Shown one piece after another: positions 23,910 through 48,940 of a stretch of 64,000 nucleotides of DNA. The notes under the pieces were generated by a model. It saw only the letters and a list, made by a program, of their open reading frames with translations. It ran no database searches and was not told the DNA's origin. The stretch is from Arthrobacter sp. AQ5-05 (lineage in GTDB: Bacteria > Actinomycetota > Actinomycetes > Actinomycetales > Micrococcaceae): the NCBI RefSeq assembly GCF_003287975.1, contig NZ_QMKQ01000018.1:1-64000 (forward strand), read 5' to 3'. Made by a program: the position numbers and the translations under genes. Numbering within the stretch: position 1 is the first letter of the stretch; the number at the start of each line of letters is the position of its first letter.

Positions 23910-24144
23910 CGAGAGGATTCTCCGTCCTCACGCGCCAGGATCCGAGGGCCGAGACTAACAGCCCCGCACTATCAATACACCTTCCTGTGCCGGAAGATTG
24001 GTTCCATCAAGCTCGCCCTCATGAAGCACACAGGTTGCGATGCCAGCTTTGAGGGCAACGAACATATTGAGTTTCCCGTTTCTCGCCGGACGATATGCCG
24101 GCCGGAGAACGGGCATGAAATGACGGAAGCAGGTGACCGGCAAG

Positions 24145-25410
24145 ATGAAGGATTGGTTGAGCCAACAGCTCAAGGCAGCGATCAGCTCCAAACCGGGCTT
24201 CAAGACCAGAAGATGGCTTGGCCTGGGCACGGCAACCGTTGCCAATCACGAATTGGACCATATTCCGGTGGCCGGAGACGTAGTCGTCTACTTCAGCGAC
24301 GTGGTCAACAAGGCCTACCAACTTGAGCAATGGATCCCTACCTTGGAGAAGCTCCACGAGCTCCACCGCGTCGTGCTCGTCTTCCGGAAGGTGCCCACGA
24401 TGCGCCATTTCAGGAAGTTGACCGACCTCCCCAAGATCTACGTCCGCCGTTTGGACGACCTCGTGAACTTCTACGACTTCAACGATTTCAGGCTATGCCT
24501 CTACGTCAACAACGGTATGGCGAACTTCCAGTCCCTGAGCGCCTCCAGACCGGTGCACGTCCATGTCAACCATGGTGAGAGCGACAAGCTTTCCATGGTC
24601 TCGAACCAAGCGAAAGCCTACGACAAGATCTTTGTTGCCGGACCGGCCGCCGTTGAACGCCACAAGGCGGTCCTGCTGGATTTCGACCTGGACAAACTTC
24701 TCAGCGTTGGCAGGCCACAGTTGGACTCGCAATTTGAGTCCGAACTTCCCGCATTCACCGGCAAGACCGTAATGTATGCGCCCACGTGGGAAGGTGAGAA
24801 CGATGCAAACAACTACACCTCAATGGATCTCTTTGGCGAAAGCATCATCGAGGCATTGGTTGCACTCCCGGACACGCGAGTCATCTACAAGCCTCATCCA
24901 CGCATCCTGACGTCCACGACAGCCGCTGTCGCAAGTGCGCACACACGGATCAGTGAAATCCTTGAGGAACACAACGCCGCCGGCGCCCAACACGTGATTG
25001 CTGAAGCCCAGAACATCTTGGCGCTATTCGAAGACATTGAAGCTTTGGTCACCGATGTGTCGAGCGTGGGCCTGGATTTCTTGTACTTGCACCCGGAAAA
25101 GCCGCTGATTCTTACCGATCGACGAAACGACCTGGAGAAGCTGAACCGGGAAGTTCCCGTCAGCAGGGCCTGCCCGGTAATCAACGATTCAACCCAAGCT
25201 CCCTTGCTGGCCTCAATGGCCACGCATCTGAACGCGGCCCCGAGTGAGGAACGCCTCCAGATGCGCGCATTCTATTTTGGGGATCGTCAGCGAGGATCCT
25301 CAACAACGGACTTCATCGCGGCGATCGACACGCTGATCAAGGGCCGGGAACAGCAGCTGCAGTCATACGAGCAACGCGCCAGCGCCGTGGACTCCGGGGA
25401 CGACGACTGA
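24145..25410 (+). CDS. CDP-glycerol glycerophosphotransferase family protein (TagB/TagF-like)
   Basis: A 421-residue protein of the Glyphos_transf family, which moves glycerol phosphate (or another polyol phosphate) from the CDP form onto a teichoic-acid-type chain on the cytoplasmic face. Signatures are HVNHGESDKLSMVSNQAKAY with the catalytic His, VMYAPTWEGEND, VIYKPHPR and VTDVSSVGLDFLYL. It is a paralog of the gene at 47686 (shared YQLEQW, HGES(D/E)K, APTWEG blocks). ATG 24145 with AGGTGA at 8 nt was preferred over GTG 24133. A strong hairpin terminator follows at 25447. Confidence 0.82.
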   Translation: MKDWLSQQLKAAISSKPGFKTRRWLGLGTATVANHELDHIPVAGDVVVYFSDVVNKAYQLEQWIPTLEKLHELHRVVLVFRKVPTMRHFRKLTDLPKIYVRRLDDLVNFYDFNDFRLCLYVNNGMANFQSLSASRPVHVHVNHGESDKLSMVSNQAKAYDKIFVAGPAAVERHKAVLLDFDLDKLLSVGRPQLDSQFESELPAFTGKTVMYAPTWEGENDANNYTSMDLFGESIIEALVALPDTRVIYKPHPRILTSTTAAVASAHTRISEILEEHNAAGAQHVIAEAQNILALFEDIEALVTDVSSVGLDFLYLHPEKPLILTDRRNDLEKLNREVPVSRACPVINDSTQAPLLASMATHLNAAPSEERLQMRAFYFGDRQRGSSTTDFIAAIDTLIKGREQQLQSYEQRASAVDSGDDD

Positions 25411-25446: not shown

Positions 25447-25489
25447 AATGCGGGTTGGTCCATTCATTCAGAATGGACCAACCCGCATT
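25447..25489 (+). terminator. Strong hairpin terminator between the TagB/F-like gene and glnK
   Basis: AATGCGGGTTGGTCCATTC (25447-25465) and its perfect complement (25471-25489) enclose a 5-nt loop. Placed 36 bp after the plus-strand gene and 15 bp beyond the glnK stop on the other strand, it can serve both converging transcripts. Confidence 0.85.
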
Positions 25490-25853
25490 CTCGTATTTGT
25501 CGGGCTACACCGCGGCCATGCCGCGTTCCCCGGTGCGGACCCTGATCACTTCCTCAACGTGGGTGACCCAGATCTTCCCGTCACCGGCGCTGCCGGTGTT
25601 CGCGGTGGAGATCAAGACATCCAGGATGTCGTCGCAGGAGTCCTCTTCCACCAGGATTTCGAGGCGGACCTTGGGAAGGAGATCGACCGTGTATTCGGCG
25701 CCCCGGTATGTATAGACGAGGCTTTGGGTAGCGGCTGTGGGTCGATCCGGTAACACTTGCGGGTGGATGCGGTAGCGCTTTTGGCCACGCCGGGACAGGA
25801 TGGCTTTCACCCACGACATTGGGGTCGTGGACGGTGAAAGGAAACCAACTGTC

Positions 25854-27506
25854 ATGGCTGATTACCGACACATCATGTCCCTGCTGGTGCGGGGCTATTC
25901 CTATCGGGAGGTCCAGGCATTGGCCGGATGCTCGCATCGCACGATCGCGAAGGCCCGCCAGATCCTCAACGCCGAGGGCTTCACGACCGACGAGCAGATC
26001 CAGGCGCTGACTGCCGAGGACGTGGACCGGTTGTTCACGGACGGGCGCAAGCCAACGCCCGGCGCGTTCGTCCCGATCGATATCGAGGCGGTGGTGGCGG
26101 CCCGGATCGGCCGGAAGAAGCCGCCATTGAAGGTCCTCTGGGCCCGCTACCTCGAGACCCCTGCGGACGGGTCCGCCCGGTTCTACGGGTATGACCGGTT
26201 CTGCGAGATCGTTTCCGAGCATGTCCGCGTCCATGACCTGACCAGCCCCATTACCCACGTGCCGGGACGCACGATGCAGGTCGACTGGGCCGGGACCCGG
26301 ATGCGGCTGACGGACCCGATCACCCAGGAAACGAGTAACGTCTCGGTCTTCGTGGCGTCGTTGCCGTACTCGGGCATGATCTTCGCCCACGGCTTCCTGG
26401 ACGAGAAAATGGCGGCGTGGTGCGACGCCCACCGACGGGCCTTCGAGTATTTTCAGGGTGTCAGCCAGGTCGTCGTGCCGGACAACGCCTCCACGGCATC
26501 GAACCAGATCAGCCGCTACGAAAAAGCCAGGGACGTCAACCAGTCCTACGCCGCATTCCTGGAGCATTACCGGACCGCGGCCGCCCCGACCAAGGCCGCA
26601 AGCCCGAAACAGAAGGCGAACGTGGAGGCGGGGGTGAAGGTCGTGACGAACTGGGTCATCCACTACCTGGCAGAGAGGCGCTTCGCGAGCCTGGACGAGC
26701 TGAACGAGGCCGTGGCGGAACGGGTGGAGATGATCAATGACCGCACCCCGTTCCGTGGCGAGGCCCGCTCCCGCCGGGCCTGGTTCCAGGAGGCCGAGCA
26801 GCCCGAGTTGATGGAGCTGCCCGAGCAGCGGTGGCAGCCGGTGCAGTGGCGGAAGGCGCGCGTCTCCCGTGACTGGCATGTCCAGCTCGATACGGTGAAA
26901 TATTCGGTTCCCCACCGGCATGCCGGGCAGCTCCTGGACGTGCGGATCGTCGGCGAGCAGGTCGCGATCCTGGCCGACGGCGACATCGTGGCCACCCACC
27001 CGCGCGGCACGCGGCGCCACGGTTTTGTCACCGACCCGGTCCATGCCCCCGCCGGCTACGAGGACACGTCCCTTTTATGGACCCGGGCCTACTTCCTGCG
27101 GCAGGCGGCCAAGGTCGGCCCCCACACGGTTCAAGCCTTCACCCGGCTGCTGGACCGGATGAAGATCGAGGCCCAGGGTTATCGCTCCTGCATGAACATC
27201 CTGGGCCTGGGCAAGGGCAACAACCGCAGGCTGCTGGAACAGGCCTGTGGCGAGCTGTGTGGGCAGGACGAGCGGATCCAGATCAGCTATACCGCGCTCA
27301 AGAACCGGATGGCTGCGCTGCGGGCGGCCCATGCCGAACGGCCCGCAGCCGACGGCGGGCAGCGCTCAGCGGGGATGCCAGCGGCTCCGCCACCGGGGCA
27401 CCGGGATACGAGCAAGGCCCATCTGGGCGGGATCGCGGAGTTCAGCCTCGAGGCGCTGAAGCGGCCAGCGGGGTCCGGGGACGAGAACGGAGCGGACCGT
27501 GCTTGA
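25854..27506 (+). CDS. istA: IS21-family transposase IstA
   Basis: The 550-residue DDE transposase catalyses strand transfer of the element. The N-terminal helix-turn-helix (VRGYSYREVQALAGCSHRTI) precedes an rve core with TMQVDWAGTRMRL (first Asp), VVPDNASTASN (second Asp) and KQKANVEAGVKVV (Glu). The C-terminal part has the DNA-binding KYSVPHRHAGQLLDVRI stretch. GAAAGGAAA lies about 12 nt before ATG 25854. It overlaps istB by 8 bp. Confidence 0.93.
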   Translation: MADYRHIMSLLVRGYSYREVQALAGCSHRTIAKARQILNAEGFTTDEQIQALTAEDVDRLFTDGRKPTPGAFVPIDIEAVVAARIGRKKPPLKVLWARYLETPADGSARFYGYDRFCEIVSEHVRVHDLTSPITHVPGRTMQVDWAGTRMRLTDPITQETSNVSVFVASLPYSGMIFAHGFLDEKMAAWCDAHRRAFEYFQGVSQVVVPDNASTASNQISRYEKARDVNQSYAAFLEHYRTAAAPTKAASPKQKANVEAGVKVVTNWVIHYLAERRFASLDELNEAVAERVEMINDRTPFRGEARSRRAWFQEAEQPELMELPEQRWQPVQWRKARVSRDWHVQLDTVKYSVPHRHAGQLLDVRIVGEQVAILADGDIVATHPRGTRRHGFVTDPVHAPAGYEDTSLLWTRAYFLRQAAKVGPHTVQAFTRLLDRMKIEAQGYRSCMNILGLGKGNNRRLLEQACGELCGQDERIQISYTALKNRMAALRAAHAERPAADGGQRSAGMPAAPPPGHRDTSKAHLGGIAEFSLEALKRPAGSGDENGADRA

Positions 27507-28272
27507 CCACCACCTGACCGAAGACGACATGGGCCTGTTCACGCGGCTGCGGCTGACCGCGTTCGGCCAGGCCGTCATCGACATCGCCAACGATCCGGCC
27601 TACGACGAATGGACGTTCTCCCGGAAAATCCGCCATGCCCTGGAGCAGGAAACTGCCGCCCGGTCGCAACGGCGGATGCTGAAGCTGCTCAAGGAATCGA
27701 AAACACCGAACCCGGAGGCCTGCGTGGAGGATATCCATTTCCTTCCGGACCGGAGCCTGAACCGGGAAGTCATCGCACGGCTTGCCTCCTGCCGGTGGAT
27801 CGAGAACACCACGAACCTGGTCATCCTCGGCAAATCCAGCGTCGGCAAGTCCTACCTCGCCCAGGCGTTAGTCAATGCCGCCTGCCGCCGGGACTACACC
27901 GCACGCTACTTCCGGCTCGATGACCTGGCAAACCAGCTGGCGGTCTATCACCGCTCCGACCCTCAACGGCTGGCCTTCCTGGCCGGCCTGCACGACTGCG
28001 ATGTCCTGGTCCTGGACGATCTGCTGACCACGCCGATCACCCCGGACGCGGCCAGCGAACTGCTGAACATCCTTGCCGGGAGGGAAGGCCGCGGTGCCAC
28101 GGTGGTGACCTCGCAGTTCGATCCCGAGGACTGGTACAAGTCGCTGCACGACGCGGTCGTCGCAGAATCGATCCTCAACCGCATCGTCTCGACCAGTGAG
28201 CTCATCCAGCTCGACGGACCGAACATGCGTCGTCACATCCACACCGAACAGGAAGGTGCCGTCACCTCCTAA
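27499..28272 (+). CDS. istB: IS21-family helper ATPase IstB
   Basis: A 257-residue AAA+ ATPase related to DnaC that assists IstA in target selection. Walker A is LGKSSVGKSYLAQAL, Walker B is CDVLVLDDLLTTP, and sensor-type VVTSQFDPEDWYKSL follows. GTG 27499 lies inside the last codons of istA, so translation is probably coupled. Confidence 0.93.
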   Translation: MLDHHLTEDDMGLFTRLRLTAFGQAVIDIANDPAYDEWTFSRKIRHALEQETAARSQRRMLKLLKESKTPNPEACVEDIHFLPDRSLNREVIARLASCRWIENTTNLVILGKSSVGKSYLAQALVNAACRRDYTARYFRLDDLANQLAVYHRSDPQRLAFLAGLHDCDVLVLDDLLTTPITPDAASELLNILAGREGRGATVVTSQFDPEDWYKSLHDAVVAESILNRIVSTSELIQLDGPNMRRHIHTEQEGAVTS

Positions 28273-28504
28273 ACCGAAGGCAGCGGCGGTGGACCCGGTG
28301 CTTCCGGGTCCACCCACGCTTGCTACCGGATCGACCCGCACCTGCTACCGAAAGCCTCGTCTAAACACCGGTAGACCTGCGTGTGTCCGCGCTGCCGACC
28401 GTAACCGCTGGCTTGGCTGATGGTCATGCCCTGGACTCCGTAGGACTCGAGTGCCTCCCGGATCTGGTCGGTCTTTTCGGGCCGGATGATGGCTGTCACG
28501 AGTT

Positions 28505-29836
28505 TCATGCGTTGACCTCTTCCTTGACTCGATCCGCATCCTTGTCGGCGGCGGTGGACTTCAGGTGTGCCGAGGTGGCCGGGTGCGGGACGAAAGTTCC
28601 GCCGGTACCCAGGCCTCCGAACTCGTAGCCGGTTTCGGCGTGCTGCATCAGGTCGATGCCGGCGATTTCGTGCTCGGTGGTGATGCGGAAGCCCATGGTC
28701 TTGTGAATGGCAAGGCCGATGATGGCTGTCATGATGGCGGTGAAGGACATGACCACCAGGCAGGCAACAATCTGTGCCCAGAGCTGCCCGAACCCGCCGC
28801 CGTAGAAGAGTCCGCCACCCACCCCGTCAACGGGAAGGGCAATGAATCCCAGGGCCACGGTTCCAATGATGCCGGAGACCAGGTGCACACCCACCACATC
28901 AAGTGAATCGTCGTATCCCCAGCGGTACTTCAGCCCCACGGCCAGGGCCGAGGCGACGCCGGCAACGATGCCCAATCCAAGGGCGGCAACCGGAGTGATG
29001 TTGGCGCAGGCCGGGGTGATGGCCACCAGACCGGCCACGATTCCGGAGGCCGCGCCCAAGGACGTGCTGTGGCCGTCGCGAAGGCGCTCGACAAGGATCC
29101 AGCCAAGCAATGCTGCAGCGGGGGCTGCCAGGGTGTTCACCCAGATCAGGCCTGCCTCCTCGGCGGTGCTGGCGGCGCCGCCGTTGAACCCGAACCATCC
29201 GAACCAGAGCAGGGCCGCACCGAGCATGACAAAGGGGATATTGTGGGGTCGCTGGCTCGGATCCTTCCCGAAACCGCGACGCTTGCCAAGGATTAGCGCC
29301 AAGATCAATCCGGCAACGCCGGCATTGATGTGCACCACGGTGCCTCCGGCGAAGTCAATGGCCTCGCCCACCACCGAGCCGATGGCGCCGTCTGCTCCGA
29401 GGATGCCGCCGCCCCAGACCCAGAAGGCGATCGGTGCGTAGACCACGGTCACCCAGACGGGAACAAATACCATCCAGGCGCTGAATTTTGCGCGGTCCGC
29501 CACGGCCCCGGAAATCAGTGCAACGGTGATGATCGCGAAGGTCGCTCCGTAACCGGCGGCGATGAAGCCGTCGGTGCCGAGCATGGATCCCATCCCGAAC
29601 CCGTCAGCGGGGTTTCCGAACAAGCCGCCAATGTTTGCGCCGCCGCCCGACATGGAGTTTCCCCAGAGCACCCACACCACGGTGACGAGGGCGATGGCAG
29701 AGAAACTCATCATCATCATGTTCAGTACGCTTTTGGCCCGGGTCATTCCACCGTAGAAGAATGCCAGTGCCGGGGTCATCAGCAGGACGAGCGCGGCACA
29801 CACCATCATCCACACCTGAGTCGTTGTTAGCTCCAT
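28505..29836 (-). CDS. amtB: Ammonium transporter AmtB
   Basis: An 11-helix ammonium channel (443 residues) that brings in ammonium under nitrogen limitation and is normally blocked by GlnK. Visible signatures are FFYGGMTRAKSVLNMMMMSF, the pore histidines in GGTVVHINAGVAG and DVVGVHLVSGIIG, and the cytoplasmic tail MGFRITTEHEIAGIDL. ATG 29836 has GGGAGG 7 nt upstream. The stop overlaps the glnK start. Because glnK is disrupted, AmtB here probably lacks its normal inhibitor unless another PII gene exists elsewhere. A GlnR-like box lies about 85 bp upstream. Confidence 0.96.
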   Translation of the reverse strand: MELTTTQVWMMVCAALVLLMTPALAFFYGGMTRAKSVLNMMMMSFSAIALVTVVWVLWGNSMSGGGANIGGLFGNPADGFGMGSMLGTDGFIAAGYGATFAIITVALISGAVADRAKFSAWMVFVPVWVTVVYAPIAFWVWGGGILGADGAIGSVVGEAIDFAGGTVVHINAGVAGLILALILGKRRGFGKDPSQRPHNIPFVMLGAALLWFGWFGFNGGAASTAEEAGLIWVNTLAAPAAALLGWILVERLRDGHSTSLGAASGIVAGLVAITPACANITPVAALGLGIVAGVASALAVGLKYRWGYDDSLDVVGVHLVSGIIGTVALGFIALPVDGVGGGLFYGGGFGQLWAQIVACLVVMSFTAIMTAIIGLAIHKTMGFRITTEHEIAGIDLMQHAETGYEFGGLGTGGTFVPHPATSAHLKSTAADKDADRVKEEVNA

Positions 29837-29921: not shown

Positions 29922-29937
29922 GTTTCGGGGTGGTTAC
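29922..29937 (-). promoter_or_regulatory. GlnR-type binding site upstream of amtB
   Basis: The minus strand reads GTAAC-CACCCC-GAAAC, an exact match to the actinobacterial GlnR half-operator gTnAC-n6-GaAAC. A second, weaker GTAAC-n6-AAGGA lies downstream (29889-29904). This predicts nitrogen-regulated transcription of amtB-glnK. The consensus is established knowledge from Streptomyces and Mycobacterium; its use in this organism is inferred. Confidence 0.6.
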
Positions 29938-30075: not shown

Positions 30076-31263
30076 CTAGTCGAGCAGTGCGTCGACAAAG
30101 GCTTCGGCATCAAACGGTGCCAGGTCGTCCGGGCCTTCGCCCAGGCCAACCAGCTTGACCGGAACACCGAGCTGCCGCTGGATCGCCACGACGATGCCAC
30201 CCTTGGCGGTGCCGTCGAGCTTGGTCAGGACGATACCGGTGACGTTGACGACCTCGGAGAAGACCTTGGCCTGGTTCAGGCCATTCTGTCCGGTCGTCGC
30301 ATCCAGGACCAAAAGGACCTCGTCAACGGTTGCCTTCTTTTCAATGACTCGCTTGATCTTGCCAAGCTCATCCATGAGGCCAACCTTGTTCTGCAGGCGG
30401 CCGGCGGTGTCGATCATGACTATGTCGACTTCCTGCTCGATGCCCGCGGTCACTGCCTCGAAGGCAACGGATGCCGGGTCGGCTCCATCGATGTCGGACT
30501 TGACGGTGGGTACACCCACGCGGTCGCCCCATGTGGCCAGTTGTTCGGCGGCAGCGGCGCGGAAGGTATCTGCCGCACCGAGGATGACGTCCTTGTTCTC
30601 GGCAACCAACACGCGGGCCATCTTGCCGATGGTGGTGGTCTTGCCGACGCCGTTGACGCCAACCACCATGATCACGTTCGGGCGATCCGCATGGCGAACC
30701 GGGATGAAGTTGCGGTCCATGGTGGGGTCGACCAGCTTGATGAGTTCCTCGCGGAGCATGTCGTGGACCCGCTGCGGGTCACGGCTACCTTCAACCTTGA
30801 CTCGTTCGCGCAAGGCGTCCACGAGCTCAAGGGTCGGTTCGGTGCCCAAATCTGCCAAGAGCAAGGTCTCTTCGATTTCGTCCCAGACGTCTTCGTCGAT
30901 CTTGTCCTGGCTCAAGAGGGCGAGCAAGCTCTTGCCCAGGACGGTGTTGGACTTGCTCAGGCGGGCGCGCAGCCGCGCCAGACGCCCCTGGACCGGTTCC
31001 GGGACATCGGTGGGGACGAGCACCTTTCCGGCGGTTTCGTCCACAATTTCGATTTCCGCGGCCTCGGCCGGGGCCGATGCCTCCGGGGCTTCGGTGGATG
31101 GTGCATCTGTGGTGAGCGTGGGCGCTGGGTCGTTGGCGTCGCGCGGACCGGTGTACGTTCCCTTGGTTGCCTTACGGCCACGCACAAGGAAGAAGGCAGC
31201 ACCAATACCAATGACGGCAACCACTGCAACGAGGACAATGATCAAGTTAAGTTGTTCTGACAC
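30076..31263 (-). CDS. ftsY: Signal recognition particle receptor FtsY
   Basis: The SRP receptor, partner of Ffh. The 395 residues start with a membrane-anchoring segment (LIIVLVAVVAVIGIGAAFFL), followed by an acidic Ala/Pro-rich linker and the NG domain with GVNGVGKTTTIGKMA, DTAGRLQNK and TKLDGTAKGG. Start GTG 31263 has AGGA 3 nt upstream. Only 36 bp separate it from the divergent MFS gene, so the two promoters must overlap. Its position between smc and amtB is the usual actinobacterial order. Confidence 0.96.
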   Translation of the reverse strand: MSEQLNLIIVLVAVVAVIGIGAAFFLVRGRKATKGTYTGPRDANDPAPTLTTDAPSTEAPEASAPAEAAEIEIVDETAGKVLVPTDVPEPVQGRLARLRARLSKSNTVLGKSLLALLSQDKIDEDVWDEIEETLLLADLGTEPTLELVDALRERVKVEGSRDPQRVHDMLREELIKLVDPTMDRNFIPVRHADRPNVIMVVGVNGVGKTTTIGKMARVLVAENKDVILGAADTFRAAAAEQLATWGDRVGVPTVKSDIDGADPASVAFEAVTAGIEQEVDIVMIDTAGRLQNKVGLMDELGKIKRVIEKKATVDEVLLVLDATTGQNGLNQAKVFSEVVNVTGIVLTKLDGTAKGGIVVAIQRQLGVPVKLVGLGEGPDDLAPFDAEAFVDALLD

Positions 31264-47685: not shown

Positions 47686-48912
47686 GTGACTATATTCGAT
47701 CTCCTGAAACGGCAGTCCCACCTCTTGCCCGCGAGAATCCACGCCGTGGCAGTGGAGAAAAAGGTCAGCCGGACACTTAGCAATACCACTCCTGCGCCTA
47801 CAGCTGTGGTGGAATTCGCCGTTTTTTTCGCCGATGGACCTAGCCAAAGCTATCAGCTGGAACAATGGGTCGCACCGTTTGAAGCCCTTCAAAAGCGTGG
47901 CTACGGCGTGTGCCTGCTAGTCATGAATGCGCTTACCGCCCGCAAATTGAACCGGCAGACCAACCTTCCGATACTTTTAACTCGTTCCATGGAACAAATT
48001 GAAACCGCGTTAGCTTCTTGGAACACCCTGGGCATCTTTTACGTCAACAATTCGCAGGCAAACTTCACGATGTTGCGATTCAACGGTCCCGCGCATATAC
48101 ACCTGAGCCATGGCGAGAGCGAAAAGTCATCGATGGTCTCTAACCAACTAAAGGCTTACGACTTTGCATTCATCGCTGGGCTAGCTGCGAGGCGTCGCAT
48201 TATGGCGAATGTCGCACGTATCGATCCGGCAAAGTTAATTGAAATAGGCCGGCCGCAACTCGACGTTCAATTTGCAAGGCCCGCAGCACTGCGCACCAAC
48301 CCACGCATCAGAGTCCTGTATGCCCCTACATGGGAGGGAGATGGACAAAATATGGCCTACAGCTCAATTGTTTCAATTGGTGCCAAGTTGGTCACAGCCT
48401 TGCTAAGCGACGAGCGCTTCACTGTTGTGTTCCGCCCGCATCCCAAGACCGGAAGCAGTTCGGTGGAAGCACGCCACGAATTGGGCCGCATTCGTAAAGC
48501 CATTACTACCGCGATCCATAGGACGCCCGATGCTGGTCATTTCGTCGATAGGGCAGTCGATTCTTCGCTTAGCATCTACGACGCGGATATCGTGCTATGC
48601 GATATTTCGGCTATGGCGATGGACAGCGTGGGTCTAAACAAGCCGCTGATGCTCCTCTATACTTTCCCGACAACGATGACAGACGACCTTGCCATTCGGC
48701 AGTCAGTGTCTACACAGGACGCGAGCAGAATGCTGGCCGAGGAAAACGGAAATCCACTGCTGAGTATCATCGCCACCTTGAGCAAGTCCGAACCGCCGCA
48801 ACAGCAACAAGCTCTGCGCGACGTGATATTCGGTGATCCTGCGTTGGGCAGCGCCACAGAACGGTTTATCGACGCAACACTAACTGTCACGAGTGCCGCT
48901 GATAGGCCGTAG
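47686..48912 (+). CDS. TagB/TagF-like glycerophosphotransferase, on the opposite strand to its locus
   Basis: A 408-residue Glyphos_transf protein, paralog of the gene at 24145: YQLEQWVAPFEALQKR, HLSHGESEKSSMVSNQLKAY with the catalytic His, VLYAPTWEGDGQ, VVFRPHPKTG and ALCDISAM-like ILCDISAMAMDSVG (read VLCDISAMAMDSVG). It is the only plus-strand gene in the glycopolymer locus. TAGTAT (47674-47679) lies 6 nt before GTG 47686 without a ribosome-binding site, the same spacing as the leaderless membrane paralogs. Its 3' end carries an imperfect 28-bp tandem repeat covering the stop codon. Confidence 0.8.
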   Translation: MTIFDLLKRQSHLLPARIHAVAVEKKVSRTLSNTTPAPTAVVEFAVFFADGPSQSYQLEQWVAPFEALQKRGYGVCLLVMNALTARKLNRQTNLPILLTRSMEQIETALASWNTLGIFYVNNSQANFTMLRFNGPAHIHLSHGESEKSSMVSNQLKAYDFAFIAGLAARRRIMANVARIDPAKLIEIGRPQLDVQFARPAALRTNPRIRVLYAPTWEGDGQNMAYSSIVSIGAKLVTALLSDERFTVVFRPHPKTGSSSVEARHELGRIRKAITTAIHRTPDAGHFVDRAVDSSLSIYDADIVLCDISAMAMDSVGLNKPLMLLYTFPTTMTDDLAIRQSVSTQDASRMLAEENGNPLLSIIATLSKSEPPQQQQALRDVIFGDPALGSATERFIDATLTVTSAADRP

Positions 48913-48940
48913 CTGTCACCAGTGCCACTGATGGGCCGTA
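48884..48940. repeat. Imperfect 28-bp tandem repeat across the end of the TagB/F-like gene
   Basis: CTGTCACGAGTGCCGCTGAT-type sequence at 48884-48911 recurs at 48913-48940 with three substitutions. The stop codon of the gene (48910-48912) lies at the junction, so the gene end was duplicated. Confidence 0.8.

Follow-up and report, generated by a model that had tools for sequence, protein, structure and literature searches.

We analysed a window of 64,000 bp (the whole stretch of DNA considered here) within contig C18 (88,252 bases) of the Arthrobacter sp. AQ5-05 genome, a 4.65-Mb draft of 116 contigs with an estimated completeness of 100%. The amtB gene (28505-29836, minus strand) encodes 443 residues matching PF00909 with 374 bits, and its stop codon overlaps the start of glnK by four bases (ATGA), as it does in all 12 same-genus genomes parsed (own genome included; G005 and G012 left out). 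A predicted GlnR-like box, GTAAC-N6-GAAAC (29922-29937, minus strand; consensus from the excerpted text of PMC10704036), precedes amtB and occurs nowhere else in the window, where 0.01 occurrences are expected. Across the same 12 genomes the box is exact in nine and carries a GAAAT variant in three, and its distance to the amtB start is 85-86 bases in every case. By sequence match, amtB thus has the upstream box of a GlnR-regulon member, and both gene and box are intact, as the original prediction had it.

Upstream of amtB lies ftsY (30076-31263, minus strand; TIGR00064, 348.7 bits), and on the other side of glnK a convergent glycerophosphotransferase-like gene (24133-25410, plus strand; PF04464, 36.3 bits). 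In the own genus this convergent gene, and not ffh, is the one found behind glnK; it also stands beside the uninterrupted glnK site in three relatives (G010, G006 and G003). A 19-pair hairpin (25447-25489; z -10.4) behind both glnK and the convergent gene is likely the original terminator. Note that the scan returned three terminator-like sites, no more than expected by chance (2.7), and that no structured RNA reached the Rfam gathering scores. Elsewhere in the window, positions 48884-48940 hold two copies of a 29-bp unit that are 89% alike.

The glnK gene itself is split by an IS21-family insertion element of 2659 bp (25709-28367, plus strand) with TGT...ACA ends, whose tips read TGTATAGACGAGG...CCTCGTCTAAACA. 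The 6-bp target duplication CCGGTA is exact at both element edges (left copy 25703-25708, right copy 28368-28373), and family models, ends and duplication all agree on a clean insertion. Read along the strand of glnK, the duplicated sequence is TACCGG, codons 46-47 (Tyr-Arg), and glnK is cut after codon 47, leaving a 5' part with codons 1-47 (28368-28508, minus strand) and a 3' part with codons 46-112 and the stop (25505-25708, minus strand). Both parts match the Pfam P-II model on their own (55.5 and 50.7 bits, cut-off 25). Removing the element and one copy of the repeat restores the 112-residue frame, and the joined halves give a P-II domain of the usual length, about 112 residues, with Tyr51 in the T-loop. 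In its present state, glnK has no uninterrupted frame: the reading frame of the 5' part stops after 61 residues (28323-28508, minus strand), 47 from GlnK and 14 encoded by the element, and the gene would no longer code for a working PII. The break, the duplication and the restorable frame were thus all correctly read in the original prediction.

That prediction also stressed that the element sits exactly in the T-loop codons. The position is right, but it is not unusual: with the T-loop taken as residues 37-55, 19 of the 112 codons belong to it, and a random insertion would land there with a chance of 17%. A preference of the element for the T-loop was rejected on this count and on the duplications of seven related insertions, which have no visible common sequence. 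Moreover, since a break anywhere in the first ~100 codons ruins the protein, the T-loop position adds no meaning of its own. An insertion sequence splitting a gene is an ordinary kind of event; this case is informative.

The element carries all the marks of the IS21 family. Its istA gene (25800-27506, plus strand) encodes a 568-residue transposase that matches NF033546 with 221.7 bits (cut-off 160) and PF22483 with 79.8 bits, the rve model staying just below its cut-off (29.8 against 32.6 bits). IstA residues D162, D228 and E276 are invariant in the seven IstA proteins aligned and, by motif and by a spacing like that of D124, D187 and E233 in the IS21 transposase (excerpted text of PMC11208146), probably form the DDE catalytic triad. 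Downstream, istB (27499-28272, plus strand) begins with a GTG that overlaps the end of istA by eight bases and encodes a 257-residue AAA+ helper ATPase (PF01695, 154.8 bits, cut-off 24.1); against the stricter NCBI helper model NF038214 it scores 179.6 bits, under the cut-off of 200. IstB also matches the PADLOC model DrmD (79.6 bits), a match that we take as shared AAA+ ancestry, rejecting a defence-system reading; through this model, IstB-like ATPases are likely to be miscalled as defence genes. The terminal inverted repeats span 68 bases and are 81% alike between the ends. Within each end, 22-bp direct repeats begin at bases 19 and 41, forming a left pair (25727-25770, plus strand; element bases 19-62) and a right pair (28306-28349, minus strand; bases 19-62 from the right tip). 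This is the layout of two direct repeats per terminal inverted repeat described for IS21 ends (excerpted text of PMC10122671), and the istA-istB order, DDE triad, AAA+ helper and CA-3' ends are likewise those of IS21 and IS5376. The duplication is 6 bp here and 5-8 bp in relatives, compared with 5 bp in the cited IS21 work. A strong hairpin lies 3' of istB, inside the right end (28282-28320; z -4.0 on the plus and -2.9 on the minus strand); it could halt or delay transcription of either strand and may shape the amtB message.

We then compared the element with its relatives. Among 395 genomes sampled from the family, the closest full-length copies are 77-80% alike (G305, G014, G009 and G012), followed by one at 70% (G347), and plasmid relatives from Rhodococcus, Dietzia and Nocardia reach at best about 70%; at 77-80% for its nearest full-length copies, this is a distinct element. 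No second copy was found in the own genome, where the element is single-copy in the assembly; the search for its source thus found no donor in the own genome, the sampled family or the plasmids. In eight related full-length insertions, whose duplications were read by eye, seven show 5-8 bp duplications at the same TGT/ACA ends and one (L152) shows none. The intact genes of the element, and the fact that G305, G014 and G012 each carry a pair of copies, suggest active transposition. Separately, paired matches to the element ends lie about 0.5 kb apart in G252 (C1:3566316-3566832) and about 1.5 kb apart in G086 (C85:29665-31145); they enclose little or no transposase match and are possible short non-autonomous relatives.

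A perfect 6-bp duplication at TGT/ACA ends that related elements share is hard to square with an assembly or population artefact, in which most cells would carry an intact glnK or the element would have been misjoined. The assembly being a draft of 116 contigs speaks for such an artefact; however, no intact glnK allele lies on any other contig, and a single-copy element offers no repeat to misjoin. We consider this explanation very unlikely. Still less credible, to the point of being almost negligible, is a split PII in which the 61-residue N-terminal stub would assemble with the product of a putative 116-residue ORF (25505-25855, minus strand), which starts at an ATG within the element and reads in frame into the C-terminal half of GlnK. 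That frame and the fact that a cut in the T-loop is tolerable in principle favour it, but no promoter-like site was found in the scan (sigma-70 type only), inspection by eye shows no ribosome-binding site ahead of the ATG at 25855, and the insertion is so young that the intact codons are no evidence for selection acting on the two fragments.

The age of the insertion can be bounded from the glnK halves. Joined GlnK is identical over 112 of 112 residues to the intact GlnK of two same-genus genomes (G006 and G010) and over 111 of 112 to that of a third (G003), and the joined flanks form a single unbroken alignment with the empty sites of all three, over 3317 bases at 95.6% in G010 (L087), at 93.9% in G006 (L089) and at 92.8% in G003 (L088). 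Compared with G010, glnK differs by seven synonymous and no nonsynonymous changes, and amtB by 47 synonymous and one nonsynonymous. Under neutral evolution of glnK after the split, this branch should have gained 12-19 nonsynonymous changes, against none observed (P0 below 1e-5). The unchanged halves thus place the insertion late, after the split from the nearest sampled relatives, and suggest that it occurred roughly in the last 15-26% of the branch, an approximate limit for which the two branches are taken to evolve at the same rate. A recent event, as proposed originally from the exact duplication, is supported on the evolutionary scale. Note that the corresponding stretch of another same-genus genome (G008) is identical letter for letter to that of Paeniglutamicibacter terrestris ANT13_2 (L003; Micrococcaceae, order Micrococcales).

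Could another gene make up for the broken one? When the six first-look candidates were all scored, the only P-II model matches in the genome were the two glnK halves. The original prediction had named a second intact PII gene as what would overturn it; none was found in the 116-contig draft, a gene in an assembly gap remaining conceivable. The genome holds a single Amt gene, the amtB before glnK, and rescue by another PII or Amt gene was therefore rejected. As for the stub, it corresponds to the part before the T-loop tip and lacks the second half of the fold, and we infer that it gives no working PII. GlnK acts on AmtB almost only through its T-loop, the tip of which enters the pore exit (excerpted text of PMC4285133); by analogy, AmtB of this strain would be left without its GlnK plug. 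The proposal that ammonium uptake lost its normal brake is therefore kept in a weaker form than it was put, as its basis is work on E. coli and mycobacteria and as Amt without PII is fairly common in the family (see below). GlnK may also have other partners, in which case its loss may act mainly on something other than AmtB.

Tyr51 had been presented as the modified site of PII signalling, and this part did not hold. The best match to the UTase/GlnD model in the own genome scores 33.6 bits, in the HD region of a 481-residue frame, the others being weak and partial, and no GlnD was detected at E 1e-25 in any of the 395 family genomes, which sample the family evenly, with positive controls in E. 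coli, Caulobacter and C. glutamicum. Weak partial matches to the GlnD model occur in each of 59 relatives, which a stricter threshold separates: strong GlnD (E 1e-40 or better) is present in 15 of 22 genomes from other families of the order and in none of 37 from this family. In those other families, PII and GlnD occur together (15/22) or are both missing (7/22), whereas 28 of the 37 family genomes without strong GlnD have a PII match. GlnE turned up once, with both of its matches in a single frame. Tyr51 is nonetheless kept in 13 of 13 named Micrococcaceae GlnK loci, as it is in 51 of 55 other named loci. Speaking against our reading, nine of these 55 are also without an adjacent GlnD, although some of the nine are short. 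Because GlnD was found neither in the own genome nor in the 395 of the family, Tyr51 is probably not modified in this organism, unless by another enzyme. In E. coli, the GlnK variant Tyr51Ala remains able to bind AmtB and to dissociate from it (excerpted text of PMC4274968), so that AmtB control without modification is known there.

The locus may be set against the amtB-glnK-glnD operon of Streptomyces, Corynebacterium and Mycobacterium, with its adenylylated PII. It shares with that operon the upstream GlnR-like box and the order amtB then a GlnB/GlnK-type PII with Tyr51; it differs in that glnD is absent here and in the 395 family genomes, and in that glnK is now broken. In a review, glnD is described as ubiquitous in actinobacteria. 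Saccharopolyspora erythraea is noted to be without it (excerpted text of PMC10704036), so that the absence of GlnD as such was already known. Our search of open-licence PubMed Central found no literature on a missing GlnD in Micrococcaceae or on an insertion sequence in glnK.

We then examined how often Amt is found without PII. A PII match is present in 310 of the 395 family genomes and an Amt match in 366; Amt without PII was seen in 56 of the 366, and PII without Amt in none of the 310 (the two sets were compared from hand-read lists, whose sizes agree with the tallies). At least seven of the 56 have only weak Amt matches of about 1e-19 to 1e-22 (G035, G107, G126, G142, G170, G184 and G195), and some of the 56 are incomplete. 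In one genus (g23), the PII-less genomes mostly have one Amt and the others two, a pattern that resembles loss of the entire pair. Not all of the 56 are thus the same event. Overall, judged by these matches, Amt without PII is not rare in the family and the loss of PII is not singular. In one further genome (G023, C10:313355-314124), two adjoining Amt pieces below cut-off resemble a broken Amt, next to other, whole Amt genes.

In all 13 named Micrococcaceae GlnK loci, amtB and glnK are accompanied by an ftsY within the locus; in one of the loci, from Sinomonas atrocyanea (L056), amtB-glnK-amtB-glnK stands between ftsY and an ffh-like gene. Only six loci that are Amt-positive and PII-negative or PII-weak were fetched, two of them (G051 and G056) from other families, and ftsY lies beside amtB in five (not in G056). 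In three (G017, G028 and G051), no GlnK match follows amtB and the next gene, at 97-155 bases, is ffh-like, an identity checked in G028 only (TIGR00959, 580 bits); in G017 and G028 the space after amtB is too short for glnK. In G018, by contrast, some 1.6 kb of other sequence intervenes before the next gene, and a weak PII match of 27 bits was found in another place; in G026 a second FtsY-like match was not seen. In the named loci, 12 of 80 have no GlnK match in the DNA examined, and nine of these 12 carry names that we take to be of Microbacteriaceae. Compared with our locus, G017 and G028, which belong to the same family, have likewise kept AmtB beside ftsY and lost GlnK; in those two genomes no remnant of glnK can be recognised, whereas here the gene is freshly split. 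The window may therefore show the first step that could lead to GlnK-less ftsY-amtB loci, although that it will do so is conjecture.

The recurrence of a kept amtB with a missing glnK in other genera would also fit a loss favoured by selection, whether in laboratory culture or in a habitat poor in nitrogen, with the unbraked AmtB or relief of another GlnK target aiding growth. In Streptomyces hygroscopicus, PII inactivation leads to more ascomycin via relieved acyl-CoA carboxylases (excerpted text of PMC8187598). However, a single insertion is no test of selection, and a neutral or slightly harmful loss would look alike. Mycobacterium smegmatis without PII, a laboratory strain that has lost its sole PII gene with amt intact, as here, survives and shows normal growth when ammonium is low, but its growth on nitrate and nitrite is impaired (excerpted text of PMC11001197); our case differs in being natural or undocumented, caused by an insertion sequence, and in a family without GlnD. 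We regard a selected loss as unlikely, though less so than an artefact.

We thus consider it highly probable that a late IS21-family insertion abolished the sole PII gene and left AmtB without its GlnK plug, a loss that was tolerated, giving a natural GlnK-null, AmtB-positive state. The complete element transposed into codons 46-47 of glnK, duplicating six bases, and the unchanged halves show that it did so late, after the split from the nearest sampled relatives. The amtB-glnK message would then code for intact AmtB and the 61-residue stub, with no working PII; AmtB would no longer be plugged by the GlnK T-loop when ammonium is plentiful, while amtB transcription would still respond to nitrogen through the upstream GlnR-like box. 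The loss was probably tolerated, as GlnK in Micrococcaceae would work without GlnD and be a dispensable add-on to AmtB. A wider reading, on which we are evenly divided, is that Micrococcaceae uncoupled PII from its modifying enzyme while keeping Tyr51, that GlnK became a dispensable attachment of AmtB that was shed repeatedly, and that this insertion is one such loss in progress.

The setting, with a sole PII gene, a GlnD-less family and near-identical intact relatives, makes a useful natural experiment: an AmtB-positive, PII-less strain stands beside near-identical PII-bearing relatives, so that no engineered strain is needed to test the brake on ammonium uptake. A family with Tyr51 but no GlnD lets one ask what role Tyr51 has when it is unmodified, and the insertion seems to record a gene loss that has also taken place in related bacteria.
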